Assembly: GCA_016794485.1 (NCBI GenBank)
Contig: JAEUHV010000523.1
Coordinates: 1 to 34,564, forward strand
DNA from: Planctomycetota bacterium
GTDB taxonomy: Bacteria; Planctomycetota; UBA1135; UBA2386
Reading direction: 5' to 3'
DNA length: 34,564 nt
Under the pieces are notes generated by a model that did no database searches, was not told the origin of the DNA, and was given only the letters and a program-made list of their open reading frames with translations. Below are positions 14,158 through 30,501 of the stretch, piece after piece; within the stretch, counting starts at the first letter, position 1; every line of letters begins with the position of its first letter. A program made the position numbers and the translations under genes.

Positions 14158-16929
14158 CTACCGCAGCGCCGCCAGCACCGCGTCGTGCACGGCGCGCCGG
14201 ACCGCAGTGATCTTGTTGTTGACCCGCGTCGGATGCACGCGGTTGGTCAGCAACACCACGCACAGGTCGTGGCGCGGGCAGCACCACAACGACGTGCCGG
14301 TGAAGCCGGTGTGGCCGAACGTGCCCGCGGGCACGTTCGTGCCGGCCCAGCCGCTCGCCAGCATCTGGAAGCCGAGGCCACGGGACCGGTCGGCCGAGAT
14401 CCCGGCCGGGCGCGTGGCGAGTTCGACCAGTTCGCGCGGCAGCACGCCGCGGCCGCCTCCGAGCAGGGTCACGCCGTACTCGAGCACGTCGGCGCCGGTC
14501 GCGAACAATCCGGCGTGCCCCGAGATGCCGCCCATCGCGAACGCGTTCTCGTCGTGTACCAGGCCGCGCACGATGCCACCGCGGGCGTCGTCGCGCTCGG
14601 TCGGCGCGGCCCCCGCCACCGGCGTGCCGGTGGTCGGCGCGAACAACGCGCCGCGCATGCCGAACGGGGTGCACACCTCCCGCTGCACGAAACGATCGAA
14701 CGGTTCGCCGGAGCACGCCTCCACCACCGCCATGAGCAGCACGAAGCCGAGGTCGCTGTAGGTCGGTCCCGTGCCGGGCTCGTACATCAGGCCCTCCTTG
14801 GCCGCGGCGTCGACGATCGCCGCCTTGCCGGACAGCGTGCGGTAGTAGCGTTCGTACGCCGGCAGGCCGCCGTCGTGCGCGAGCAGATGGCGCACGGTGA
14901 CCTTGTCCTTGCCCGTGCCGGCGAACGCGGGCACCCACTTCTGCACCGGATCGTCGAGCGACAACTTGCCGGTGGCGACGAGCCGCAACACCGCCGGTGT
15001 CGTCGCGCACACCTTGGTCAGCGACGCGAGGTCGTAGCGCGTGTCCGGCCCGACCGCCGGGGCGTCGGCTTCGTAGCCGAGCCGACCGACCGCGAGGTCG
15101 ACGAACGTCGCACCGCGCCGCGCCACGAGGCACCGCGCCCCCGGGAACGCCCCGTCGGCGATCGCCTGGTCGAGCAGCCCCTGCAATCGCGCCGGCAGTT
15201 CGGCCGCGAGTTCGGCGCGTTCCGGATCCGCGGTCGCCGCGGCGTAGATCGACGCCCCGCTGCCTGCCGCCGCGACCCCGGGGATCGAGACCGGCAGGCG
15301 CCCCGTCACTGGACTCTGGCCGCGCAAGGCAGCGGCGGCGGCACGTTCGGTCCGCTCCGTCGCGACGAACGCACACAAGTACGTGTCGACCAACGGCAGC
15401 TGCTGCACCAGGTACGGGTTGCCGAACGACACCGCGACGACCCGCTGCTCTTCGCGCAACGCCGCGAACACCGGCGCCAGCACCGCCGGCATCGCCACGC
15501 CGCCGCTGCTCTCGCGCACCTTGGCGTGCAACGCCAACACGACGCACTTCGCCGCCGCGACCTCGGCGGCGAGGGCCGCGACCTGTTCCGCCGTGCTGCT
15601 GCCCGACGCGCGCACCGCCTTGCCACCGAGCGGCGCCAGCACCTGCGCGAACGCCTGGCCATCGCCCTCGTCCTTGTCGAGCAACGTCACCAGCAGCGGT
15701 GCGGCCGCGGCATCCGCGTGCAGCGGCAGCAGGCCGCCGCGGTCGCGCACCAGCACGAGGCCGCGTTCGGCGATGCGGTCGGCGACCTGCTGCGATTCGC
15801 GGGTACCGAGATGCTGGCGCCAGTCCACGGCGAGCTTGCCGCCCCCAGCGAGCAGGCCGACCTTGGCCTTCGCGCGCAGGATGCGCAGCACGGCGTCGTC
15901 GAGGCGCGCCATCGGCACGCGCCCGCTGTGCACCGCGTCGACCACCGCCGCGCGCGCCGCCAGCGCGTCTGGCGGCATCAGCAGCACGTCGGCGCCCGCC
16001 AACAGCGCGCGCACCGCGACCTCGGCCGGCGGGAACGCGTTCTGCACGCCCTTCATCTCGAGCGCGTCGGTGACGACGAGGCCGGTGAAGCCGAGTTCGT
16101 CGCGCAACACGCCGCCGAGGATCTTCTTCGACAGCGTCGCGGGAACGTCGCGTTCTTCGCCGAGGCCCGGCACGGCGAGATGGCCGGTCATCACCGACTC
16201 GAGACCTTCCCTGCTCGCCTGCGCGAACGGCACCAACTCGACCGAACGCAACCGCGCGCCGTCGCCGGGCACGGTCGCGAGCGCCAGGTGCGAATCGCTG
16301 TCGACGTCGCCGTGGCCGGGGAAGTGCTTGCCGCACGCGAGCAGGCCGGCACTGCGCACGCCGCGCGCGAATGCGCTGCCGAGACGAGCGACGAGCTGCG
16401 GGTCCTCGCCGAAGCTGCGCACGTTGATGATCGGGTTCTGGGGGTTGCTGTTCACGTCGAGCACCGGGGCGAACACCCAGTGGAAGCCGAGCGCCTTGGC
16501 TTCCTCCCCGGTCACGCGGCCCATCGCCTCGGCCAGCGCGGCCGAACCGGTGGCGCCGACCAGCATCTGGTTGCCGAGTTCGGTGGCGCCCTGCAGTCGG
16601 AACCACACGCCCCCTTCGAAGTCGCCGGCGAGCAGCAGCGGGACCTTCGCGGCGGCCTGGAGCTTCGGCACGAGTGCCGCCGCGTCGTCGACGGTGCCGA
16701 GGCTGAGGATCACGCCGCCAAGGCCGGCGTCGCGCACCTGGGTCAGCAGCTTGTCGTGGTTGGAAGCACCGTCCTTGCCGTCGGTGCGCGACAGCGACCA
16801 CGCCATGAACAACTGGCCGGCCTTCTCCTGGACGGAGAGTCCGGCGAGCAATTCGGCGGCGGGGTCCTGCGCGTGCAGCGGCAGGGCCGACAGGACGAGG
16901 GCGGGAACGGCGGCGAGGATGCTGCGCAC
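14158..16929 (-). CDS. nagZ: Secreted GH3 beta-N-acetylglucosaminidase (NagZ) fused to AmiE-like serine hydrolase
   Basis: This 923-residue protein begins with a signal peptide (1-20). Residues about 25-360 are a GH3 NagZ domain: KHFPGHGD (201-208), the catalytic dyad D212 and H214 in SDSH, and nucleophile D288 in VVTDAL. A GH3 C-terminal domain (about 385-550) follows. Residues about 575-923 are a class C beta-lactamase-like hydrolase: S636-x-x-K639 (SLTK), Y724-S-D in place of Tyr-x-Asn, and H873-T-G. In Bacillus subtilis, secreted NagZ removes GlcNAc from muropeptides and the beta-lactamase-family AmiE then releases the peptide from MurNAc; here both are in one chain. It starts with GTG, 7 bp after TAGGCT (16937-16942, minus strand). 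The amidase role is inferred from AmiE. Confidence 0.9.
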   Translation of the reverse strand: MRSILAAVPALVLSALPLHAQDPAAELLAGLSVQEKAGQLFMAWSLSRTDGKDGASNHDKLLTQVRDAGLGGVILSLGTVDDAAALVPKLQAAAKVPLLLAGDFEGGVWFRLQGATELGNQMLVGATGSAALAEAMGRVTGEEAKALGFHWVFAPVLDVNSNPQNPIINVRSFGEDPQLVARLGSAFARGVRSAGLLACGKHFPGHGDVDSDSHLALATVPGDGARLRSVELVPFAQASREGLESVMTGHLAVPGLGEERDVPATLSKKILGGVLRDELGFTGLVVTDALEMKGVQNAFPPAEVAVRALLAGADVLLMPPDALAARAAVVDAVHSGRVPMARLDDAVLRILRAKAKVGLLAGGGKLAVDWRQHLGTRESQQVADRIAERGLVLVRDRGGLLPLHADAAAAPLLVTLLDKDEGDGQAFAQVLAPLGGKAVRASGSSTAEQVAALAAEVAAAKCVVLALHAKVRESSGGVAMPAVLAPVFAALREEQRVVAVSFGNPYLVQQLPLVDTYLCAFVATERTERAAAAALRGQSPVTGRLPVSIPGVAAAGSGASIYAAATADPERAELAAELPARLQGLLDQAIADGAFPGARCLVARRGATFVDLAVGRLGYEADAPAVGPDTRYDLASLTKVCATTPAVLRLVATGKLSLDDPVQKWVPAFAGTGKDKVTVRHLLAHDGGLPAYERYYRTLSGKAAIVDAAAKEGLMYEPGTGPTYSDLGFVLLMAVVEACSGEPFDRFVQREVCTPFGMRGALFAPTTGTPVAGAAPTERDDARGGIVRGLVHDENAFAMGGISGHAGLFATGADVLEYGVTLLGGGRGVLPRELVELATRPAGISADRSRGLGFQMLASGWAGTNVPAGTFGHTGFTGTSLWCCPRHDLCVVLLTNRVHPTRVNNKITAVRRAVHDAVLAALR

Positions 16930-19359: not shown

Positions 19360-20337
19360 ATGCAGTCCATGGCACCGATCCGCATGCTGTGCCCGATGCA
19401 CCTCCCCACCGGTTGGCTCGACCGCCTGCGCAGCCTGCGCCAGCGCTTCCTCGAAGACGACCACATCGGCATCGCGTTGCCCGACTACTGGCGCGACGAC
19501 CTCGACCTCGTCGCCTACGACGCCATCCCGGCGGCGCGCATCGGCTGGAAGTGGGACGCCGCCCTGGCCGAAGCGGCCGACCGCGGCCTCGTGATCCCGG
19601 CCCACGCAACCGTGCTCGACTTCGGCTGCGGCACCGGCATCGCCGCGCGCCGCTTCCTGCACCGTTTCGCCGCGAGCGAGGTGCTGTGCCACGACCGTTC
19701 CGCCCGCGCCCGCAACTTCGCGGTGAAGCGCCTGCGCGGCGAACATCCGAAGGCGAAGGTGCGCGCCGTGACCAACCCCGGCGCCGACGGCGCCGAGTTC
19801 GACGTGCTGCTGGTGAGCCATGTGCTCGGCGAACTGGACGAGTCCGGCCGCACGGCCCTTCTGGCGCTCGCCCGCCGCGCGCGCGTCGTGCTGTGGGTAG
19901 AACCCGGCAGCCGCACCGCCGCCCGTGCTTTGGCGACCGTGCGCGACACGCTGCTCGGTCCGCTGCACCCGATCGCGCCGTGCCCGCACGCCGGGAAGTG
20001 CCCGACGTTGGCGAACGACCACGACTGGTGCCACTTCTTCGCCGAGCCGCCGCCCGAGGTGTTCACCACCGGCGACTGGGTGAAGGCCGCGCGCGAACTC
20101 GGCATCGACCTGCGCGCGTTGCCGTATTCGTTCCTGGCCCTGGCGACCGAACCCACGGCGGTCGCCATGCCACTGCACCGACTGCTCGGCCGCGCCGAGG
20201 TGTCGAAGTTCGACGCTCGCCGCCTCGCGTGCAGCGCCGACGGCCTGCGGCCCTGCACGGTCACGAAGCGTGCCCAACCGGAGCTGTGGCGCCGCATCAA
20301 GAAGGACCCCGGCGGCCTGCGGGTGCTGCCCGACTGA
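19360..20337 (+). CDS. Rsm22-like ribosomal small-subunit methyltransferase family protein
   Basis: This 325-residue protein has a class I methyltransferase fold with SAM motif I VLDFGCGTG (85-93) and LVSHVLGEL as the post-II loop. A cysteine cluster CPHxxxCP followed by DWCHFF (C208, C214, C224) is the hallmark of the Rsm22/METTL17 family, where it binds an iron-sulfur cluster and the protein assists small-subunit ribosome assembly. Bacterial members are mostly uncharacterised and true methyl transfer is doubtful. Several ATGs lie close together (19360, 19369, 19384, 19396); I chose the first, since the open frame to 19258 has no family similarity. It diverges from the ParD-like gene. Confidence 0.85.
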   Translation: MQSMAPIRMLCPMHLPTGWLDRLRSLRQRFLEDDHIGIALPDYWRDDLDLVAYDAIPAARIGWKWDAALAEAADRGLVIPAHATVLDFGCGTGIAARRFLHRFAASEVLCHDRSARARNFAVKRLRGEHPKAKVRAVTNPGADGAEFDVLLVSHVLGELDESGRTALLALARRARVVLWVEPGSRTAARALATVRDTLLGPLHPIAPCPHAGKCPTLANDHDWCHFFAEPPPEVFTTGDWVKAARELGIDLRALPYSFLALATEPTAVAMPLHRLLGRAEVSKFDARRLACSADGLRPCTVTKRAQPELWRRIKKDPGGLRVLPD

Positions 20338-20343
20338 CCCGGT

Positions 20344-20372
20344 TTGGCACCGGCGGAATCCCGTCCTACAGA
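20344..20372 (+). promoter_or_regulatory. Putative pirin promoter
   Basis: TTGGCA (20344-20349), 17 bp, TACAGA (20367-20372), which ends 8 bp before the ATG at 20381. The predicted transcript would start at the start codon, and no Shine-Dalgarno is present. Confidence 0.5.
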
Positions 20373-20380
20373 CGTCGCCC

Positions 20381-21244
20381 ATGAAACGCGTGCAGCAGCT
20401 TCGGCACGGCCAGGCCATGCACTGGGTCGGCGACGGGTTCCCGGTGCGCACGTTCTTCTCGTACGCGGAACCGCTGCCGTTCAGCCCGTTCCTGCTGCTC
20501 GACTACGCGGCGCCGAACACGTTCGCCAAGGGCACGAAGCCGCGCGGCGTCGGCCCGCATCCACACCGTGGATTTGCGACCGTGACGTTGGCGCTGCAAG
20601 GCGAGATCGCCCACCGCGACTCGGCCGGCCACGGCGGAACGATCGGCCCGGGCGACGTGCAATGGATGACCGCGGCGCGCGGCGTCGTGCACGAGGAACT
20701 GCACAGCGACCGCTTCACGAGCGACGGCGGCGTGCTCGAGATGGTGCAGCTGTGGGTCAACCTGCCGGCCCGAGCGAAGATGACGCCGCCGAGCTACCAG
20801 GACCTGCGCGCCGACGCGATCCCCACCGTGGCACTGCCCGGCGAAGCTGGCAGTGCGCGCGTGGTCGCCGGCACGTTGCTCGGCGCCACCGGCCCGGCGC
20901 GCACCGTGACGCCGGTGGAGCTCTGGGACGTGACCTTGCGCGCCGGTCGGCCGACGGTGCTGCCGTTCCGCCAGGGCCACACCACGCTGCTGCTGGTCAC
21001 GCGCGGCGAAGTCGTGGTCGCGGGCGAGGACGTCGTGCCGGCGAACGCGCTCGCCGTGCTCGACCGGTTCGGCACGAAGCTGGTGCTGCAGGCGAAGGGC
21101 GGCGACGCGCGCGTGCTCGTGCTCGGTGGCGAACCGATCGACGAGCCGGTGGTCGGCCACGGCCCGTTCGTGATGAACACGTGGCCCGAGATCCGCCAGG
21201 CGGTCGACGACTTCCAGTCGGGCCGCATGGGCAGGCTCGAGTAG
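20381..21244 (+). CDS. Pirin family protein (bicupin, quercetinase-like)
   Basis: This 287-residue protein has the pirin N-terminal cupin with metal ligands in HPHRGF and a following His in ALQGEIAHRDS, the diagnostic IGPGDVQWMTAARGVVHEE segment, and the pirin C-terminal cupin with LLLVTRGEVVVAG. Pirins bind one iron; some are quercetin 2,3-dioxygenases, others redox-sensing regulators. Length is typical. It follows the Rsm22-like gene by 43 bp but has its own promoter-like sequence. The physiological role here is unknown. Confidence 0.93.
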   Translation: MKRVQQLRHGQAMHWVGDGFPVRTFFSYAEPLPFSPFLLLDYAAPNTFAKGTKPRGVGPHPHRGFATVTLALQGEIAHRDSAGHGGTIGPGDVQWMTAARGVVHEELHSDRFTSDGGVLEMVQLWVNLPARAKMTPPSYQDLRADAIPTVALPGEAGSARVVAGTLLGATGPARTVTPVELWDVTLRAGRPTVLPFRQGHTTLLLVTRGEVVVAGEDVVPANALAVLDRFGTKLVLQAKGGDARVLVLGGEPIDEPVVGHGPFVMNTWPEIRQAVDDFQSGRMGRLE

Positions 21245-21268: not shown

Positions 21269-22441
21269 TCAGACCTTCCACACGAGCCCGCGCCGGAACA
21301 GGACCGCGAGCACCGCGTACCAGCCGAGGATCCAGACGAGGCCGAAAGCAAGCGACGCCAGCTTCGGGTCGCCGATCGGTTCGAGCAGGCAGTTGGCGAA
21401 GAACCACTCCTTCACCGGGACCTGCTTGCCGTCCTGCACCACCGTGACCAGCGAGCCGACGATGCGGCCGAGCAGCGCACTGCCGACGAAGACCAGCAGC
21501 GCGTTCACGCCGTAGACCTGCAGCGGATGCGCCCACTTCGTCCACGCCTTCTGCTCGAACGCCCACACGCACAGGCCGAGCCCGCAGGTCGCGACGCCGG
21601 CGGTCCACACCGCGTAGCTCGCGGTCCACAGCGGCTTGTTGAGCGGCAGGAACCAGCTCCACACCGCCCCCGCCAGCAGCCACAGCACGCCCCATCGCAA
21701 CAGCCCCGCGACGCGGGCCGCCGGGTCCACGTTCGCGCGCAGGAAACGGCCGACCTGCACGCCGAACAACGCGGTCGCCAGTGCGGTCATCGTGCCGAGC
21801 AGGCCTTCCGGGTCGTACTTGCCCTTCACCCAGATGTGCTCGCCGAACAACGTGCGGTCGAGCCAGCCCTGCAGCGTGCCCAACGGCTCGTCGAGGTTCG
21901 GCATGCCATGCCCCGGCACCGGCACGCACGTGCTCACGAGCCAATGGCCGAACAGGCAGCCGAGCAGCACGTTGCGCTGCGTGCGCGCCGAGGTGAACAG
22001 GAACAGCAGCGCCGCAAGCCCGTAGCAGATGCCTATGCGCTGCAGGACGCCGGGGAAGCGCACGCCGAGCATCGGCGCGAACCAGTCCTTGCCGTCGGCG
22101 AACGTCACCAGCGGAAACACCGACGGCAGCATGCCGAGCAGCACGAGCCACAGGACCCGGCGGCCGATCGCCGCGACCAGCGGACCACGCGGCGCTCCGG
22201 CTTCGACCTTGCGCGCCAGAGCCGGCACGATCGCGACCCCGGCACAGAACAGGAACGTCGGGAACACCAGGTCGGTCGGCGTACAGCCGTGCCAGTCGGC
22301 GTGGCGCAGCGGTTCGTACTGGTACTTCGAACCCCAGCGGCCAGGGTTGTTCACCAGGATCATCGCCGCGATCGTGAGGCCGCGCAGCGTGTCCAGCCCG
22401 AGCCACCGCGACGGGGCCGGCACCGCGGCGTGGTCGCTCAC
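21269..22441 (-). CDS. DUF5009 / NagX-like membrane protein (HGSNAT-like acyltransferase family)
   Basis: This 390-residue protein has about ten membrane helices. The N-terminal signature [19 protein letters not shown] and the following [19 protein letters not shown] with conserved histidines are those of DUF5009, related to heparan-alpha-glucosaminide N-acetyltransferase, which moves an acetyl group from cytosolic acetyl-CoA across a membrane to glucosamine. Proteobacterial NagX in GlcNAc-use regulons belongs to this group. The start is GTG at 22441, overlapping the murQ stop as GTGA (22441-22438), so translation is coupled to murQ. That link suggests an amino-sugar substrate such as glucosamine or muramic acid, but transport or acylation direction is inference. 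Confidence 0.88.
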
Positions 22442-23343
22442 GGCGCCGCCAGCGCGGCGCGCACGCTGCCGTCGTGGGTGAACAGCAGGGTGCGGGCGAC
22501 GTGCGCGGCGACCTTCCTCTTGTGCGCGACGATCGCCGCCTTCACTTCGCCGTCGCAACCCGCCAGCAGTTCCTTCGCGACCGCGGCGGCGCAGCCGGCG
22601 GCCTGTTCGACGATGCGCACGGCGCGAGCCTTCAGCTTGTCGTTGGTCGCCTGCAGGTCGACCATCAGGTTGCCGTAGACCTTGTGCAACCGCACGAACG
22701 CGCCGGTGCTGAGCATGTTCAACACCATCTTCGTGGCGGTGCCGGCTTTGAGCCGCGTGCTGCCGGTCAGCACTTCGGGCCCGGTGACGACTTCGATCGG
22801 CAGCTCGGCGGCGTTGGCGACGGCACTGCCGCGGTTGCACACGACCGCGATGGTGCACGCTCCGGTCGCGCGCGCGGCCTGCAGGGCACCGACCACGTAC
22901 GGCGTACGGCCGCTGGCGGCGATGCCGACGACGCAGTCTTTCGCCGAAAGCCCGATCGCGCGCAGATCGGCGGCCCCGAGTGCCTCGTTGTCCTCGGCAC
23001 CTTCGACTGCTTTGACGAACGCGCCCGGCCCGCCGGCGATCAGGCCCACGACCTGTTCGGGCGAGGCCGAGAACGTCGGCGGGCACTCGACCGCGTCGAG
23101 CACACCGAGCCGACCGGAAGTGCCGGCCCCGCAGTAGACGAGGCGTCCACCCTTGTGCATGCGCTGAGCGATCGCGTCGATCGCCGCGGCGATGCGCGGC
23201 AGTTCGTGCCGAACCGCTTCGCCGACCAGCCGGTCCTCGTCGTTCATCACCGCCACCAGTTCGGCGGTGGACAGCGCGTCGAGGTCGACGGTGCGTGGGT
23301 TCCGGGCCTCGGTCGTGAGCGACGACAGGTCGATGCGGTTCAT
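22438..23343 (-). CDS. murQ: N-acetylmuramic acid 6-phosphate etherase
   Basis: MurQ cleaves the lactyl ether of MurNAc 6-phosphate, giving GlcNAc 6-phosphate and D-lactate, the defining step of MurNAc catabolism. The 301-residue length matches the family. Motifs: [13 protein letters not shown] (69-80), DAVECPPTF with catalytic E86, [11 protein letters not shown] (the second glutamate is E114 or E117), [11 protein letters not shown], and [17 protein letters not shown]. The start at 23343 gives [15 protein letters not shown], the normal N-terminus; the ATG nine codons upstream does not. It is coupled by GTGA overlap to the DUF5009 gene. A MurNAc kinase (MurK/NagK type or AnmK) is required upstream in the pathway and is not in this window. 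Confidence 0.97.
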
Positions 23344-23409: not shown

Positions 23410-24384
23410 TCAGCGGCGCAGCACGGCGTCGAGCGAGGGCGCGTCGAGTACTGTGTCGAACCAGGCGTCGAGCTCGGCGAGGCTGGCCGCCGCCACTCGC
23501 TGGCTCGCCGCCGCCGGCAGCGGGCCGAATCGCCGCTGCAGCAGGTGCAACAAGGCTTCGGCCTTGCCCTCGGCCTTGCCCTCGGCCTTGCCTTCCATTC
23601 TGCCCTGCAATCGGCCTTCGAGACGGAGCTTGTTGGCGGTGGTCATGCGCGTTGGTTCGTAGTGGTCCAGGTGTTTCGCGAACGCCATGTGCAACTGCTC
23701 CTCGGTCACTTCGGTGACTTCGAGAACATAACACGCGATCGCATCGAGAGCGTCGTCGGGGTGCGGCGGGCCTTCGTCGCTGGCCATCGCCCGGAGCGGG
23801 GTCGCCCACCGATCCAGTGCCGCCAACGCCGCCGCCGGATCGTCCGTGGGCAGATGCCCGAGGCACAGCAGGGTCAGCTGTGCGAGTGGCAGGAGGCGCG
23901 GATCCAACAGGTCTGACTCGGTCGTGGCGCCGAGTTCGTAGACGACGGCCCGCAGCTGCGGCTGCAGGTCGGCGAGCGCCTGATCCAGTTCACCGGTGGC
24001 GGTAGAGGGTGGCGCCGCCCGCGGCCGCTGCAGCAGGACCACCGGCACCACCCACGTTGCCTCGCCTGGGCCGTGCTTCCACAGCACGCGGCGCAACAGA
24101 ACCACGTAGCGCAACTGTTGCGGCTCCCAGATGTCGGACGACCCGCTGTGGTGCTCGAGCACGAACCGCACGGAACGGGAATCGACGCGCAACCGCGCCT
24201 GCAGCGCGACGTCGAGGTCGTTGCGGCGCAGACGCGGCCCCACGAGCCGGTCTTGGGCCAACGTGAGCCCTGGCCAGTCGACCGCGGCCGCCAATACCGC
24301 TGGAAGACAGACCCGTAGCCACCCGGCGGCCAGCCGAGGGTGCCGAAACGTGAACTGGAACAGTCGATCGTGTGGTGCCTGCAC
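23410..24384 (-). CDS. Rpn/PD-(D/E)XK nuclease family protein (transposase_31-like)
   Basis: This 324-residue protein starts at GTG 24384 with QAPHDRLFQFTFRHP, the entry of the Rpn/PDDEXK family. The active-site strands are visible as RRNDLDVAL and VRFVLEHHSGSS; the last normally reads E-x-Q/K, here E-H-H. A helical middle and a GKAEGKAEGKAE coiled segment follow, then a DUF4351-like end (LLHLLQRRFGPLP). Rpn proteins are DNA nucleases that stimulate recombination and have been linked to phage defence; they are often multicopy and variable. It lies 66 bp upstream of murQ on the same strand but has no obvious pathway link. Confidence 0.85.
   Translation of the reverse strand: MQAPHDRLFQFTFRHPRLAAGWLRVCLPAVLAAAVDWPGLTLAQDRLVGPRLRRNDLDVALQARLRVDSRSVRFVLEHHSGSSDIWEPQQLRYVVLLRRVLWKHGPGEATWVVPVVLLQRPRAAPPSTATGELDQALADLQPQLRAVVYELGATTESDLLDPRLLPLAQLTLLCLGHLPTDDPAAALAALDRWATPLRAMASDEGPPHPDDALDAIACYVLEVTEVTEEQLHMAFAKHLDHYEPTRMTTANKLRLEGRLQGRMEGKAEGKAEGKAEALLHLLQRRFGPLPAAASQRVAAASLAELDAWFDTVLDAPSLDAVLRR
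23558..23593. repeat. Three 12-bp tandem repeats inside the Rpn-like gene
   Basis: Three consecutive units close to TCGGCCTTGCCC encode repeated Glu-Gly-Lys-Ala on the minus strand. The third unit differs by one base. Because the unit is a multiple of three, slippage would change linker length without breaking the frame. Confidence 0.9.
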
Positions 24385-24540
24385 TCGTCACCTCCACGGA
24401 AAGGGGACTGGCGGCACTCGATTCGGGCAGGAAATGACGAGAAATTGCGCCAGACGCCGCACTACCGATCCAACCGGCGCCGACGACCGCGCCACGTTCG
24501 CGGTGGCCGCGGGTGGAACGCGCGGCTACAAGGCCGGCGC
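24385..24540. promoter_or_regulatory. Divergent intergenic region before the symporter
   Basis: These 156 bp separate the Rpn-like gene (minus) from the symporter gene (plus). TACAAG (24527-24532) ends 8 bp before the symporter ATG and may be its -10 box; no convincing -35 or Shine-Dalgarno is visible. A relatively AT-rich patch (GAAATGACGAGAAATTG, 24432-24448) is unusual for this DNA and could hold a regulator site. I see no coding sequence. Confidence 0.35.
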
Positions 24541-26049
24541 ATGTCGATCGCCCCGCTCGACCTCGTCCTCCTCTGTATCTACATGGCCGGCACGGTCGCG
24601 TTCGGCCTGTGGATGGGGCGCGGGCAGAAGACCGCGAACGACTACCTGCTCGGCGGCCGCGACCTGCCGTGGTGGGCGCTGCTGCTGTCGATCGTCGCGA
24701 CCGAAACCAGCACCGTGACCTTCCTCAGCGTGCCGGCGGTCGCCTACTCGGCCCAGTTCGGCACCGGCGACCTGCGCTTCCTGCAGCTGCCGTTCGGCTA
24801 CCTGGTCGGCCGCGCCATCGCCGCACTGTTCCTGGTACCGCTGTACTTCAAGGGGGAACTGTTCACCGCCTACGACGTGCTGCGCGTGCGCAGCGGTCCG
24901 GCGGTGCGAACGCTGGCGAGCGGCATGTTCCTCACCACGCGCACGCTGGCCGACGGGTTGCGGCTGTACCTGACCGCAGTCGTGCTGCAGATGATGTTCG
25001 GCTGGTCGTTGTGGCTGTCGGTCGCAGTCACGGGCCTGGGCACCGTCGCCTACACGGTGATCGGCGGCATCAAGGCCGTGGTGTGGACCGACGTGCTGCA
25101 GTTCGTCGTCTACATGGTCGGTGCGATCGTCGCCCTGGCGGTCATCGGCGGCAGCGTCGACGGTGGTCTCGGCGGGATCGTCGACAGCGCAGCCGCCGCC
25201 GGTCGCCTCCGGGTGTTCGACTTCGGCCTCGACTTCGGTGCCACCTACACGTTCTGGGCCGGCCTGCTCGGCGGCGCCGTGCTGTCGATCGGCAGCCACG
25301 GCGTCGACCAGATGATCGTGCAGCGCTTCCTGTCGGCCCGCTCGCAACACGACGCGCAGAAGGCACTGCTGTGGAGCGGTCCGCTGGTGCTGGTGCAATT
25401 CGCGCTGTTCCTGCTGATCGGCCTCGGCCTGTCGGCCTTCTACACGCAGCACCCCCCACAGGCTGCGTTCCGGAAGGGCGACCACGTCTTCGCCGACTTC
25501 ATCGTGCACCACCTGCCGCACGGGCTCGTCGGGCTCGTGCTCGGCGCCTTGTTCTCGGCGGCGATGTCGACGCTGTCGAGTTCGCTGTCCGCTTCCGCCG
25601 GCGCGCTGGTGAACGACTTCCTGCTGCCGGCCACCGGGCACGCCCCGGACAGTCCGTTCGCGCTGCGGGCGGCGAAGGTCGCCACGGTGCTGTTCTGCGG
25701 CCTGCAGATCGCCGTCGGCATCGTCGACTACGGCGACGACAGCCCGATCGTCGGCAAGGTGCTCGCGATCGCGACGATCACCACCGGCGTGATCCTCGGT
25801 CTGTTCGTGCTGGCGCTGCTGCCGCGGCGATCGCCGACGGCGTCGCTGGTCGGGCTGTGCGGCGGGCTCGCGGCGATCGTCGGCATCGTGTTCGTGCTGC
25901 CCCTGATCGACCTCGACGCGGCGAAGCCCGATGTGCAGGCCTTCGCCCTGGCATGGCCGTGGCACGGCATCGTCAGTTCGTCGGGCACGATCGTCGTGGG
26001 ATTCGCGGCGTCGTGGTTCGTCGCGCCTGACGCGAACGAACGAACGTGA
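24541..26049 (+). CDS. Sodium:solute symporter (SSS family), candidate MurNAc/amino-sugar importer
   Basis: This 502-residue protein has about 13 membrane helices and the SSS pattern: NDYLLGGRDLPWWALLLS near the N-terminus, ATETSTVTFLSVPA in the second helix, YTVIGGIKAVVWTDVLQ (about 175-190), SHGVDQMIVQRFLSA, and LGALFSAAMSTLSSSLSASA, which carries the sodium-site Ser/Thr residues. The substrate is not readable from motifs. It lies 35 bp upstream of two NamZ-type genes and close to murQ. In Tannerella forsythia an SSS-type protein (MurT) imports MurNAc beside murK and murQ, so MurNAc or a MurNAc-disaccharide is the leading guess. Sialic acid and other sugars are alternatives. Confidence 0.9.
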   Translation: MSIAPLDLVLLCIYMAGTVAFGLWMGRGQKTANDYLLGGRDLPWWALLLSIVATETSTVTFLSVPAVAYSAQFGTGDLRFLQLPFGYLVGRAIAALFLVPLYFKGELFTAYDVLRVRSGPAVRTLASGMFLTTRTLADGLRLYLTAVVLQMMFGWSLWLSVAVTGLGTVAYTVIGGIKAVVWTDVLQFVVYMVGAIVALAVIGGSVDGGLGGIVDSAAAAGRLRVFDFGLDFGATYTFWAGLLGGAVLSIGSHGVDQMIVQRFLSARSQHDAQKALLWSGPLVLVQFALFLLIGLGLSAFYTQHPPQAAFRKGDHVFADFIVHHLPHGLVGLVLGALFSAAMSTLSSSLSASAGALVNDFLLPATGHAPDSPFALRAAKVATVLFCGLQIAVGIVDYGDDSPIVGKVLAIATITTGVILGLFVLALLPRRSPTASLVGLCGGLAAIVGIVFVLPLIDLDAAKPDVQAFALAWPWHGIVSSSGTIVVGFAASWFVAPDANERT

Positions 26050-26084: not shown

Positions 26085-27278
26085 ATGCGGTGCCTTCTCG
26101 TCGCGACGTTGCTGTTGCCGTGCCTCGGCACGGCCCAGTCCCCCTCGCCCGACGTGCGCACCGGCGTCGACGTGCTCGCCGCGAGCGGCTGCGCCGAGCT
26201 GCGCGGACGCAAGGTCGGCCTGATCACCAACCACACCGGTCGCACCGCCGACGGGCGGCGCACCGTCGACGTGCTCGCCGCCGCCGAGGACGTGACGCTC
26301 GTCGCGCTGTTCTCGCCCGAGCACGGTTGGGAGGGCAAGGTCGACGAGAAGGTCGGCGACACGCGCGACACCGCGACCGGACTGCCGGTGTATTCGCTCT
26401 ACGGCGCGACGCGCGTCCCCACCGAAGCGATGCTCGCCGGCGTCGACACGCTGGTGTTCGACATCCAGGACATCGGCTGCCGCTTCTACACCTACCTGTC
26501 GACGATGCGGAACTGCCTCGAGGCCGCCGGCGCGCGCGGCCTGCGCTTCGTCGTGCTCGACCGACCGAACCCGATCGGCGGCGTGCGCACGGAAGGCCCC
26601 GTGCTGGCGAAGGACCGCCAGGACTTCGTCGGCGCGCACCGCATCCCCCTGCGGCACGGCCTCACCGCCGGCGAACTGGCGCGCATGGTCGCCGGCGAAG
26701 ACGGTCTGCAGGTCGACCTGCACGTCGTGCGCTGCGAAGGCTGGCAACGCGCCGACCTGTGGGACGCAACCGGTCTACCGTGGGTCAACCCGTCGCCGAA
26801 CATGCGTTCGCTGACCCAGGCGCTGCTCTACCCGGGCATCGGCCTGCTCGAAGGCACCAACCTGTCGGTCGGACGCGGCACCGACACTCCGTTCGAAGTG
26901 CTCGGCGCGCCGTGGTGCGACGGCCTTGCGCTGGCGAAGCGGCTGCGCGCGGCGAAGCTGCCCGGCGTCACGTTCGTCCCGGTGGCGTTCACCCCGACCG
27001 CGAGCAAGTTCCGCGGCGAGGCCTGCTCGGGGGTCAACGTCGTGGTCACCGACTGGGCCACGTTCGAGCCGGTGCGCACCGGCATGCACGTCGCGTGCGC
27101 CCTGCGCGCGCTGCACCGGGACGCGTGGGACGTGCAGAAACTCGACTGGCTGCTCAAACACGCGCCGACGCACGATGCGATCCTCGCCGGCACCGCGGCC
27201 GACGCGATCGTGGCGACGTGGGCGAAGGAACTCGACCTGTTCCGGTTGCGCAAGAAGCCGTTCCTGCTCTACGAGTGA
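26085..27278 (+). CDS. namZ: Secreted DUF1343 protein, NamZ-type exo-beta-N-acetylmuramidase
   Basis: This 397-residue protein has a signal peptide (1-17) then a complete DUF1343 (GH171) domain: GRKVGLITNHTGR, LFSPEHGWEG with E79, VYSLYG, VFDIQDIGCRFYTY, DRPNPIGG, RHGLTAGELA, NPSPNMRSLTQALLYPG and LEGTNLSVGRGTDTPFE. NamZ (YbbC) of B. subtilis releases terminal MurNAc from muropeptide-derived glycans after NagZ; the PEHG glutamate lies in the proposed active site. TAGCAT (26070-26075) lies 9 bp before the ATG. It follows the symporter and precedes a second, leaderless DUF1343 paralogue by 10 bp, so the three are probably one operon. Confidence 0.92.
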   Translation: MRCLLVATLLLPCLGTAQSPSPDVRTGVDVLAASGCAELRGRKVGLITNHTGRTADGRRTVDVLAAAEDVTLVALFSPEHGWEGKVDEKVGDTRDTATGLPVYSLYGATRVPTEAMLAGVDTLVFDIQDIGCRFYTYLSTMRNCLEAAGARGLRFVVLDRPNPIGGVRTEGPVLAKDRQDFVGAHRIPLRHGLTAGELARMVAGEDGLQVDLHVVRCEGWQRADLWDATGLPWVNPSPNMRSLTQALLYPGIGLLEGTNLSVGRGTDTPFEVLGAPWCDGLALAKRLRAAKLPGVTFVPVAFTPTASKFRGEACSGVNVVVTDWATFEPVRTGMHVACALRALHRDAWDVQKLDWLLKHAPTHDAILAGTAADAIVATWAKELDLFRLRKKPFLLYE

Positions 27279-27288
27279 GATCGAACGC

Positions 27289-28464
27289 ATGCCCGCCGCC
27301 ATCCACTTCGGTCTCGAGATCGCCTGCAACCAACCACCCGACGTGCTGCGTTCGGCGCGCACGTTCGGCCTCTTGTGCAACCAGGCCTCGGTCGATCGCC
27401 AGTTCCGCCACGCCGCCGACGTGCTCGACAAGCGCTATCCGGGCAAGCTGAAGGCGATCTTCGGGCCACAGCACGGGCTGTGGTCGACCGAACAGGACAA
27501 CATGATCGAGACCGGCCACGCGCGCCACGCGCGGCTCGGCGTGCCGGTGCACAGCCTCTACAGCGACACCAGGAAGCCGACGCAGGCGATGCTCGACGGC
27601 CTCGACCTGCTCGTCGTCGACCTGCAGGACGTCGGCACTCGCGTCTACACGTACGTCTGGACGCTGACCTACTGCCTGGAGGCGTGCGCGCAGAAAGGGA
27701 TCCCGGTGCTCGTGCTCGACCGGCCGAACCCGCTCGGTGGCCTCGTCGCCGAAGGCCAGGCTCTCGACCTGCGCTGGCAGAGCTTCGTCGGCAGGGCCCC
27801 GCTGCCGATGCGCCACGGCTTGACCATGGCCGAGCTGGCGCGCTGGTGCAACGACGTCATGGGCCTGTCGGCGGACGTGCGCACCGTGCCGATGCAGGGC
27901 TGGCGCCGCAGCATGTCGTGGCCAGATCTTGGCCGCGCGTGGGTGCCACCGTCGCCGAACCTGCCCCGCTGGGAAGGTGCCTTGGTGTATCCGGGCCAGG
28001 TGCTGCTCGAAGGCACGAACCTCAGCGAAGGCCGCGGTACGACGACGCCGTTCGAGCAGTTCGGGGCGCCGTTCGTCGATCCGTGGCAGCTGCTGGCCTT
28101 GGCTGCCGCGCACGACGTGCGCGGGGTCGCGCTGCGCGCGGTGCAGTTCGAGCCCACGTTCCAGAAGTGGCAGGGCAAGGCCTGCGGCGGGCTGTTCGTG
28201 CATCCAACGGACGCCGAGACGTTCCGGCCGTACCGCACGACGCTGACGCTGCTGCGCGCGATCCGCGAACTGTGGCCCAACCAGTTCGCGTGGCGCGAGC
28301 CGCCGTACGAGTACGAAGCCACGCTGCAACCGATCGACATCCTGGCCGGCAGCCCGGCAGTGCGCGAGTTCGTCGATGGCGAACGGCCGCTCGACCAGCT
28401 CGACGCGCTGGCGGCCCCGCCGCCGGACTGGTGGCAACGCGTGCGCCGCACGCTGCTCTACTGA
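27289..28464 (+). CDS. Second DUF1343 (NamZ-like) protein, no signal peptide
   Basis: This 391-residue protein is a full-length DUF1343 homologue: TFGLLCNQASV, FGPQHGLW, QDNMIETG, VHSLYSDTRKPT, VVDLQDVGTRVYTY, DRPNPLGG, PSPNLPRWEGALVYPG and LEGTNLSEGRGTTTPFE. It lacks a signal peptide, unlike its neighbour, and the PEHG motif reads PQHG (Q61). I believe the PQHG and QDNM combination marks a separate subfamily, not decay. A cytoplasmic NamZ-like enzyme could split imported MurNAc-containing disaccharides. T. forsythia has two NamZ enzymes with different substrate preferences, a useful parallel. The ATG at 27289 is chosen because the frame upstream overlaps the first paralogue. Confidence 0.88.
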   Translation: MPAAIHFGLEIACNQPPDVLRSARTFGLLCNQASVDRQFRHAADVLDKRYPGKLKAIFGPQHGLWSTEQDNMIETGHARHARLGVPVHSLYSDTRKPTQAMLDGLDLLVVDLQDVGTRVYTYVWTLTYCLEACAQKGIPVLVLDRPNPLGGLVAEGQALDLRWQSFVGRAPLPMRHGLTMAELARWCNDVMGLSADVRTVPMQGWRRSMSWPDLGRAWVPPSPNLPRWEGALVYPGQVLLEGTNLSEGRGTTTPFEQFGAPFVDPWQLLALAAAHDVRGVALRAVQFEPTFQKWQGKACGGLFVHPTDAETFRPYRTTLTLLRAIRELWPNQFAWREPPYEYEATLQPIDILAGSPAVREFVDGERPLDQLDALAAPPPDWWQRVRRTLLY

Positions 28465-28473
28465 GGCCGCCGC

Positions 28474-30501
28474 GTGTCGCCGACCGACAAGCCGTCGTGG
28501 AGCTGGACCGCCGTCGCGGCGTTGCCTGCCATCGCACTGGCCGCGGTGCAGACGCGGTTCGTCGGGGCGTTCTTCAGCGACGACGCGTTCATCTCGCTGC
28601 GCTACGCGGCGCGACTGCTCGGCGGCGATGGGCTGACCTGGACCGACGGCGAACGGGTCGAAGGGTACAGCAACCTGTTGTGGGTGCTCGCCACGGCGGC
28701 GCTCGGGGCGTGCGGGCTCGACCTGGTCACCGCGGCGCGGGCACTCGGTGGCTGCGCCACCATGGTCGCGTTCGTGGCGCTGGCGCGCGCGTTCGCACCG
28801 CACGACCTCGGCTCGGCGATGCGCGCGGCGGTGGCCCCGCTGCTGGTCGCGTCGACGCAGGTCGTGCTCGGCTGGACGTTCGGCGGGCTCGAGGGGCCCT
28901 TCGTGCTGTGTTTCCTGGCCTGCGGCTTCACGGCGGTGTTGCGCGCGTTCGCGGCGGCACCGCAACCTGCGGACTGGAGCGCTCGCATCTGGGCCGCGAT
29001 CGCCGTGCCGTTCGTGCTGCTCGTCTGGACGCGCCCCGACGCCCCGCTGTGGGTCGCGGCCATCGCGACGGCCATTGCCCTCGCGGCGTGGCCGTGCGGG
29101 TTCGGCACCGCGCTGCGCACGGCACTGCGGTTCGCGACGCTGCCGCTGCTCGCGTTCGGGCTGCAGCTCGGATTCCGGCTCGTCTACCACGGCGACTTCG
29201 TGCCCAACACCGCGCACGTGAAGGCGGAGCTCGATCCGGCGACGTGGCCAGCGGGCCTCGACTACGTGCTGGGCGCTGCGAACGCGCACCTCGGGCTGGT
29301 GTTGCCCGCGATCGCGATGGCACTCGCCGGCCTGTGCGTCCGAACGCTCCGCGCGACGACCCTGCTGTTGCTGCTGCCGATCGCGGCATGGGCGCTGTAC
29401 CTGGTCGGAATCGGCGGCGACCACTTCCCGGGCCGCCGCATGCTGCACGGTGCCGTGGTGCCGCTCGCGTTGCTGGCCACCTCGGCACTGGCATGGCGTC
29501 GACTCGCGTGGGCGCTCGCCGCGGCGCTGCTCGTCGGGGTCGGCGCCAACGTGTGGCTCGCACGCACCGATCCGCAGAGTCTCGAACTGCGCGGCGAGGT
29601 GTGGGAATGGCGCGGCCGTGCCGTCGGCGAAGCGCTGCGCACCACGTTCGCTGCGAGCCGGCCACTGCTCGCGGTCGACGCCGCCGGCGCCGTGCCGTTC
29701 TACAGCGGACTGCCGTGCCTCGACCAACTCGGGCTGTGCGACCGCACCATCGCGCGCACTCCGTTTCCCGAATGGCTGCAGACCGTGGCGCCCGGCACGC
29801 CCAAGCCCCCAGGGCACCTGCGCGGCAACGGCCGCTACGTGATGGACCGCGCCCCGGACCTGCTGCTGTTCAGCAACCCGCCGCACCTGCCGCTGCCGGT
29901 GTGGGTCAGCGCCGCCGAATACGAAGACGACCCGCGCTTCCTGCGCGGCTACCACTGCGTGCGCGTCGAACTGCCCGCGGCCGAACTGCTGCCCGGCGTT
30001 CGCGAAGACCTCGTCGTGCCGTTGTGGGTCGCACGCGACGGCAAGGCCGGTGTGCAGCGCAGTGACGACACGGTGCGCGTGCCGGCGTTCCTGTTCGCGT
30101 CGCGGCAGTTGCCGGAACCGATCACGCGGCGCTACCAGCCGTCGGCCGATCCGGCCCTCGCGGCGCGGCTCGGTGGCCACATCGCCGGCCTGGTCGGCTG
30201 GCTGCAGGATGCCGCGTGCACTGCAGCCCCGGCGCCAAATGGCGGGCTGGCACTGCGGCTGTCGCGGCCCGGCACGTGGTCGGTTGCGCTGCCGCTGCCG
30301 CGCGGCGTGTGGAGTCTCACACTGGAACCCAGCCGACCCGGGGTCGCGGTTCGCACGGCCGGAGCAGCCAGGGGAGATGCGGCTCCAACCCTCGACGTGG
30401 CCGCGGACAACGATGTGCACGCTCTCGAAGTGCACGTCGCCGATGGCATCGGCGGCCCGGTTTGGCTCGAGTCCGTCGTGCTGCGTCGCAGTGGAAAGTG
30501 A
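28474..30501 (+). CDS. GT-C type membrane glycosyltransferase
   Basis: This 675-residue protein starts at GTG 28474, 9 bp after the DUF1343 gene. The N-terminal half has about ten membrane helices. The first extracytoplasmic loop has FFSDDAFISLRYAARLL (D36-D37) and GERVEGYSNLLWVL, the pattern of polyprenyl-phosphate-sugar-using GT-C transferases related to mycobacterial arabinosyl/mannosyltransferases. YHGDFVPNTAHVK and GGDHFPGRRML are further family blocks. The soluble C-terminal half (about 400-675) ends in a beta-rich domain. It would transfer a sugar to a glycan or protein outside the cytoplasm; donor and acceptor are unknown. It may be cotranscribed with the NamZ pair by position only. 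Confidence 0.82.
   Translation: MSPTDKPSWSWTAVAALPAIALAAVQTRFVGAFFSDDAFISLRYAARLLGGDGLTWTDGERVEGYSNLLWVLATAALGACGLDLVTAARALGGCATMVAFVALARAFAPHDLGSAMRAAVAPLLVASTQVVLGWTFGGLEGPFVLCFLACGFTAVLRAFAAAPQPADWSARIWAAIAVPFVLLVWTRPDAPLWVAAIATAIALAAWPCGFGTALRTALRFATLPLLAFGLQLGFRLVYHGDFVPNTAHVKAELDPATWPAGLDYVLGAANAHLGLVLPAIAMALAGLCVRTLRATTLLLLLPIAAWALYLVGIGGDHFPGRRMLHGAVVPLALLATSALAWRRLAWALAAALLVGVGANVWLARTDPQSLELRGEVWEWRGRAVGEALRTTFAASRPLLAVDAAGAVPFYSGLPCLDQLGLCDRTIARTPFPEWLQTVAPGTPKPPGHLRGNGRYVMDRAPDLLLFSNPPHLPLPVWVSAAEYEDDPRFLRGYHCVRVELPAAELLPGVREDLVVPLWVARDGKAGVQRSDDTVRVPAFLFASRQLPEPITRRYQPSADPALAARLGGHIAGLVGWLQDAACTAAPAPNGGLALRLSRPGTWSVALPLPRGVWSLTLEPSRPGVAVRTAGAARGDAAPTLDVAADNDVHALEVHVADGIGGPVWLESVVLRRSGK

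Follow-up and report, generated by a model that had tools for sequence, protein, structure and literature searches.

A pair of NamZ genes in a planctomycetal contig

The window analysed here, a stretch of 34,564 nucleotides from a Planctomycetota bacterium, contains two NamZ (DUF1343) genes, NamZ-A and NamZ-B, which are both complete, lie on the forward strand and are separated by 10 bases. The pair and its motifs are located as follows:

26085..27278, forward strand: NamZ-A, predicted exported PEHG member of the SVGRG type (open reading frame, 397 aa; Pfam NamZ_N 1.8e-82, NamZ_C 5.2e-46)
26085..26138, forward strand: predicted signal peptide of NamZ-A, about residues 1-18 (hydrophobic leader, heuristic 2.52)
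26316..26327, forward strand: PEHG motif of NamZ-A, residues 78-81 (E79), from the translation
27289..28464, forward strand: NamZ-B, predicted cytoplasmic PQHG member (open reading frame, 391 aa; Pfam NamZ_N 4e-78, NamZ_C 7.1e-45)
27466..27477, forward strand: PQHG motif of NamZ-B, residues 60-63 (Q61), from the translation
27493..27504, forward strand: QDNM motif of NamZ-B, residues 69-72 (Q69, N71 and M72 in 88/88 PQHG rows)
28024..28041, forward strand: SEGRGT stretch of NamZ-B, residues 246-251 (E247 in 88/88 PQHG and 19/78 PEHG rows)
28300..28317, forward strand: PPYEYE stretch of NamZ-B, residues 338-343 (P339-E343 in 88/88 PQHG rows)

The initial annotation of this DNA described two complete and adjacent DUF1343 genes, of which only the first would encode a signal peptide, and a change from PEHG to PQHG with QDNM downstream in the second, all of which was borne out. 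Both products contain NamZ_N and NamZ_C with Pfam scores far over the curated cut-offs (276 and 158 bits for NamZ-A, 262 and 154 bits for NamZ-B), and NamZ_N has no further match in the genome assembly of the window, which is 83% complete. The N-terminus of NamZ-A (MRCLLVATLLLPCLGTAQ) is a typical signal peptide, whereas no hydrophobic leader was found for NamZ-B from any in-frame start, the best 10-residue Kyte-Doolittle mean being -0.47 versus 2.52 for NamZ-A; these and all other export calls come from our own Kyte-Doolittle hydropathy heuristic and not from a dedicated signal-peptide predictor. According to the translations, the PEHG glutamate of canonical NamZ (GH171), which we take to be the catalytic residue, is kept in NamZ-A (E79) and replaced by Q61 in NamZ-B, where EQDNM follows at residues 68-72. 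A predicted structure of NamZ-B, a single model from 10 sequences that is least confident at the active-site loops 62-76, 220-231 and 250-254, matches the DUF1343 structures 4k05 (E 1.6e-27) and 4jja (E 3.3e-21).

Gene neighbourhood

The genes around the pair are the following:

14158..16929, reverse strand: GH3 (NagZ-like) protein fused to a beta-lactamase-like domain (PF00933 4.1e-82, PF00144 2.5e-62)
21269..22441, reverse strand: HGSNAT/NagX-like membrane protein (PF07786 1.4e-06)
22438..23343, reverse strand: MurQ, MurNAc-6-phosphate etherase (TIGR00274 399 bits, cut-off 302)
24541..26049, forward strand: SSF sodium:solute symporter, directly upstream of NamZ-A (frame 24340-26049; TIGR00813 1.1e-60, PF00474 5.3e-36)

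The GH3 gene is the only one matched in the window's genome (83% complete), and the beta-lactamase-like domain that it carries is found on a PEHG NamZ in the relative L165. The HGSNAT/NagX-like gene occurs in the same gene order in L095, L096, L098 and L099, and a distant NagK-like BcrAD protein is encoded elsewhere in the window's genome. A YhgA-like transposase-family gene (23410-24384) sits between MurQ and the symporter, a Pirin gene (20270-21244) adjoins the recycling cluster, and a large gene at 28474-30501, 9 bases past NamZ-B, has no Pfam match and is conserved close by in five further related loci.

Neighbours were counted over 90 PQHG loci, which correspond to 89 places (L118 is the same as L060). 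A layout that recurs among them has the kinase and MurQ on one strand and SSF, PEHG and PQHG on the opposite one. The PEHG NamZ lies upstream of PQHG on the same strand in 27/90 loci, whilst symporters of the SSF family, MurQ and BcrAD kinases are found near 27, 17 and 7 of the PQHG genes, respectively. In five loci the SSF gene is immediately upstream of PQHG with no PEHG between, and two Verrucomicrobia loci (L105, 4362-7796; L103, 1-2199) encode SSF and PQHG NamZ in a single reading frame. Moreover, PQHG is followed by a MurU-AmgK fusion in 11 loci, mostly from Desulfobacterota and Nitrospirota (L063, L133, L148, L156 and seven more).

The PQHG proteins as a conserved class

A family search that made no use of the motif gave NamZ_N matches in 56 of the 294 genomes of the window's phylum. 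Two of the 56 (G179 and G246) contain fragments only and were left untyped, and the truncated gene of G199 was assigned to its type manually. This search gave 10 PQHG proteins, all with QxNM. A scan of named genomes returned at least 585 relatives, and the best 80 of these at least 585 are all PQHG, a make-up that is by design since the loci were found partly via the PQHG pattern; the unbiased counts are those of the phylum-wide family search and of a Desulfobacterota sample, where QxNM is present in 93/94 PQHG genes. The record titles of the best 80 name, besides others, Planctomycetota, Verrucomicrobia, Armatimonadetes, Acidobacteria, Desulfobacterales/Deltaproteobacteria and Nitrospirae; the distribution of PQHG NamZ spans at least six phyla.

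To compare the motifs, 88 PQHG and 78 PEHG rows were aligned, the Q or E at the motif defining the class, after the short rows L068 and L069 and two duplicate L118 rows identical to L060 had been dropped. Q69, N71, M72, E155, R175, E247, T252, P339-E343, P348 and R359 are invariant in 88/88 PQHG rows. The P339-E343 positions, which include the YEYE stretch, are a gap in 67-68 of the 78 PEHG rows, and QxNM is absent from the PEHG motif stretches examined in the window's phylum, the named genomes, Desulfobacterota and the tree rows. On the other hand, D111, D114, R118, D144 and E182 are invariant in PEHG rows and also kept in PQHG rows; because most PEHG-invariant positions are retained in this way, binding of MurNAc is probably kept in the PQHG class.

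Some acidic residues were considered as substitutes for the missing glutamate. E247 of SEGRG as a relocated catalytic acid is weakened by its presence in 19/78 PEHG rows, and PEHG proteins encoded on plasmids of Gram-positive bacteria and haloarchaea also have it. A new acid within the QDNM loop is unlikely, as D70 is often A and residue 68 is variable, and E74, present in 85/88 PQHG rows, is lost in several.

A tree was calculated from 113/294 rows after thinning near-identical ones, with the motif columns removed and the motif-less L187 omitted. PQHG needs two changes on this tree and one is not rejected, the single-clade PQHG tree exceeding the score of the free search by 0.17 log units (p-AU 0.51); the PQHG proteins thus appear to be essentially one clade, whose single origin is neither rejected nor proven. 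Together with a PEHG group carrying QxM they are set apart from the other rows by a branch whose support is 97, whereas NamZ-A falls among the SVGRG PEHG rows, apart from the PQHG group. With NamZ-A and NamZ-B in separate tree regions and 44% identical (337 columns), a recent tandem duplication is ruled out, and the pair is, to judge from the sequences, an old divergence brought together, that is, two anciently separate subfamilies. The phylogeny of DUF1343 had been proposed in the initial annotation as a check on whether PQHG/QDNM proteins form a conserved clade, and they appear to do so, with companion residues shared by 88/88 rows. Both findings that the same annotation had named as contrary to its reading are at odds with the data: the rows with these companions group together, so that PQHG is no isolated mutation among PEHG proteins, and no hidden export signal was detected by the heuristic.

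Three groups of NamZ and their predicted cellular location

NamZ sequences sort mainly into three groups, which can be written as PEHG-SVGRG, PEHG-QxM-SEGRG and PQHG-QxNM-SEGRG. The first is mostly exported, 55/57 of its proteins starting with a leader or an extended N-terminal region, and its members are often on long frames; the single one inspected has a beta-lactamase-like domain. In the QxM group, which is sister to PQHG, none of the eight proteins from the window's phylum (L083, L085, L087-L089, L091, L093 and L094) has a leader, and the heuristic called a hydrophobic leader in 4/88 PQHG rows, two of them symporter fusions. The idea that the E-to-Q change singles out the cytoplasmic proteins was consequently rejected, the QxM PEHG group being equally leaderless (8/8), and since this group also lacks a leader the split in location is probably earlier than the change from E to Q. 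Moreover, E-to-Q alone does not mark a functional split because the QxM sister group agrees with PQHG in location and, very nearly, in its AnmK pattern (see below). The division of labour envisaged in the initial annotation is supported in having an exported and a cytoplasmic member, but the functional divide does not lie at E versus Q.

Further PEHG-SEGRG proteins are found in Gram-positive bacteria and haloarchaea. In the haloarchaeal plasmids L176, L184, L188 and L189, DUF1343 genes lie beside genes for GH3/NagZ or serine hydrolases, and apart from a single PTHG copy in L188 they are PEHG proteins. To our knowledge, haloarchaea are without murein.

Distribution of AnmK and of the partner enzymes

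PQHG genomes are nearly always without AnmK. In a set of 60 such genomes, formed by those of 50 of the 80 best loci plus 10 others, AnmK was over the cut-off in three, one of them strong; G199 has PQHG together with a strong AnmK. The window's genome, 83% complete, gave no match to PF03702 (AnmK), and NamZ-B itself matches the NamZ_N and NamZ_C profiles only and not the PF03702 domain. Across the window's phylum, AnmK is present in 155/294 genomes overall versus 1/10 with PQHG (kinship ignored), in 0/8 QxM genomes, and in 19/26 genomes with SVGRG-type PEHG and neither PQHG nor QxM; within the window's order, the counts are 0/3 for PQHG versus 17/19 for non-PQHG genomes, again ignoring kinship. 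Similar figures were obtained for 198 genomes of Desulfobacterota, where AnmK occurs in 0/94 PQHG versus 20/104 non-PQHG genomes (p 1e-6, kinship ignored) and in 1/11 QxM genomes. In the family f20, eight QxM genomes are without AnmK and two with no QxM (G177 and G264) have it, and AnmK is missing regardless of PQHG in G125, the other member of the family f1, and in the listed PEHG-only genomes of f29.

Regarding the enzymes that would act downstream, the NCBIfam profile of MurU was useless as a marker, with weak matches in 60/60 genomes and 14/14 controls and none over the cut-off, and the AmgK half was used in its place. An AmgK-like kinase of at least 112 bits, a threshold set after the scores were seen and which leaves 10/94 PQHG genomes below, is encoded in 84/94 PQHG, 12/104 non-PQHG and 0/20 AnmK genomes of Desulfobacterota; in 91 of these 94 PQHG genomes the protein occurs without an exported NamZ. 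MurQ is over its cut-off in 31/60 PQHG genomes, including 10/10 Acidobacteria and no Desulfobacterota or Nitrospirota. The product of SLT-type lytic transglycosylases is anhydro-MurNAc, and an SLT domain was detected, in a search of the SLT family only, in 0/24 Planctomycetota-like PQHG genomes, the window's included, and in 35/36 of the others, from which AnmK is missing; the title of the record says no more than 'bacterium' for two of these 24 Planctomycetota-like genomes.

A proposed role in MurNAc salvage

Altogether, the pair is a real, conserved and informative variation of NamZ, whose proposed part in peptidoglycan recycling without AnmK can be tested, and the group that stays inside the cell seems to replace this standard recycling enzyme, which is usually missing in these bacteria. 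We propose that both NamZ subfamilies would serve one MurNAc-salvage operon, where the exported NamZ-A most likely trims MurNAc from peptidoglycan strand ends outside the inner membrane, the SSF symporter would import the sugar, and NamZ-B would hand free MurNAc in the cytoplasm to a kinase, which in the window's genome may be the BcrAD/NagK-like one followed by MurQ, and in Desulfobacterota and Nitrospirota AmgK-MurU. That the PQHG proteins are cytoplasmic suppliers of free MurNAc is our main reading, with a probability of roughly 0.65. Free MurNAc and not MurNAc-6-phosphate is the suggested product because the partners are MurNAc kinases, and the partnership with AmgK fits free MurNAc rather than MurNAc-1-phosphate.

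NamZ-B would then stand in for the anhydro-MurNAc kinase AnmK, and its most likely reaction would be the hydrolytic opening of 1,6-anhydro-MurNAc, which would give free MurNAc in a single step. The acid glutamate of NamZ presumably protonates the GlcNAc leaving group; as the leaving oxygen of anhydro-MurNAc is part of the same sugar, the glutamate may not be needed here and could have been exchanged for glutamine. This assignment of the substrate is weaker than that of cytoplasmic supply and we hold it tentatively, at somewhat less than even odds, and we are slightly more hesitant about its extension, by which PQHG and PEHG-QxM proteins would be anhydro-MurNAc hydrolases that replace AnmK in whole lineages and feed AmgK-MurU without MurNAc-6-phosphate or MupP. 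That AnmK is almost excluded and that AmgK or MurQ are partners fits the opening of anhydro-MurNAc at least as well as the intracellular processing of a MurNAc disaccharide, a possible reaction that the initial annotation had put forward. Some observations count against the anhydro substrate: the Planctomycetota-like PQHG genomes show no SLT domain, so that a source of anhydro-MurNAc in Planctomycetota would have to be assumed, and cleavage of MurNAc-GlcNAc is an equal candidate in this phylum; the QxM PEHG group is mostly AnmK-free yet keeps the glutamate, which unties E-to-Q from the AnmK pattern; and G199 combines PQHG with AnmK.

NamZ-B could otherwise be a cytoplasmic exo-muramidase on imported MurNAc-beta-1,4-GlcNAc, with some other acid replacing the PEHG glutamate. 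As modelled, its fold would be that of the solved DUF1343 proteins, most other PEHG-invariant positions are kept (D111 to E182, as listed above), the conserved acids E241, E247, E341 and E343 could serve, and the SLT-free Planctomycetota-like genomes suit a non-anhydro substrate there. However, from such an activity alone one would not expect PQHG and AnmK to exclude each other so nearly, and E247, already found in PEHG rows (19/78), did not arise as a replacement for the glutamate. We regard this reading as the main rival, and as somewhat less likely than the opening of anhydro-MurNAc. The loss of the presumed catalytic glutamate, together with the symporter fusion in two loci, would also be consistent with a protein that binds MurNAc compounds without turnover, either as a sensor or as a partner of the symporter, a role made improbable by the AnmK near-exclusion and the coupling to AmgK and MurQ, which suggest a metabolic step, and by the usual lack of an exported NamZ beside PQHG in Desulfobacterota (91/94).

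Phosphorylases can do without a catalytic carboxylate, and this fact and the MurU domain as a neighbour would favour a phosphorylase yielding MurNAc-1-phosphate, or an enzyme acting on another muramic derivative. A phosphorylase is nevertheless disfavoured because there would be no need for AmgK if MurNAc-1-phosphate were the product, but kinases of this type are present in 84/94 genomes, and we see this whole option as very improbable. It could also be argued that lineage accounts for the patterns of AnmK and AmgK and that the pair is just two hydrolases differing in substrate preference, as is reported for NamZ1 and NamZ2 of Tannerella forsythia: the counts treat genomes as independent of kinship, and G125 and the PEHG-only f29 genomes are AnmK-free with or without PQHG. 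The contrasts within the window's order (0/3 versus 17/19) and within f20 speak against it, and we give this explanation little credence.

Comparison with known systems

In the open-access literature we found no description of a PQHG class of NamZ or of a replacement of AnmK by it, the primary NamZ papers being beyond that search; DUF1343 is mentioned in five open-access full texts, of which none was on this subject as judged by title. If true, the proposal would supply a recycling step that is missing in Desulfobacterota, Nitrospirota, Acidobacteriota and Planctomycetota and for whose test a single purified protein would do, and it would mean that a glycosidase family can drop its presumed catalytic glutamate and yet stay strictly conserved in at least six phyla.

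The closest structures, 4k05 (BF0371) and 4jja (BF0379) of Bacteroides fragilis, have the same fold and both domains, as does NamZ-B, but they are PEHG proteins, and QDNM and YEYE were not seen in the stretches compared. The presence of two NamZ paralogues per organism recalls Tannerella forsythia, whose NamZ1 and NamZ2 reportedly have distinct substrate specificities in the work of Borisova et al. from 2022, a likeness drawn from a title-level description. The founding exo-beta-N-acetylmuramidase is said to be NamZ (YbbC) of Bacillus subtilis, from the work of Muller et al. in 2021. NamZ-A and NamZ-B resemble it as two-domain NamZ_N/NamZ_C proteins in a recycling cluster with MurQ and a NagZ-type GH3, both of which belong to the B. 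subtilis MurNAc-recycling cluster in the part of the source at hand (PMC5061867). Unlike B. subtilis NamZ, NamZ-B appears leaderless and has Q for E in PEHG plus QDNM and PPYEYE, and the genomes with its PQHG type are nearly always AnmK-free. As for AnmK (PF03702), described in the consulted part of PMC5371407 as the conserved anhydro-MurNAc step in Gram-negative bacteria, NamZ-B is its proposed functional equivalent in making anhydro-MurNAc usable. The two belong to unrelated families, and AnmK yields MurNAc-6-phosphate, after which, in the same part of that source, the Pseudomonas route needs MupP to reach MurNAc (PMC5371407), whereas free MurNAc would be the direct product of NamZ-B.
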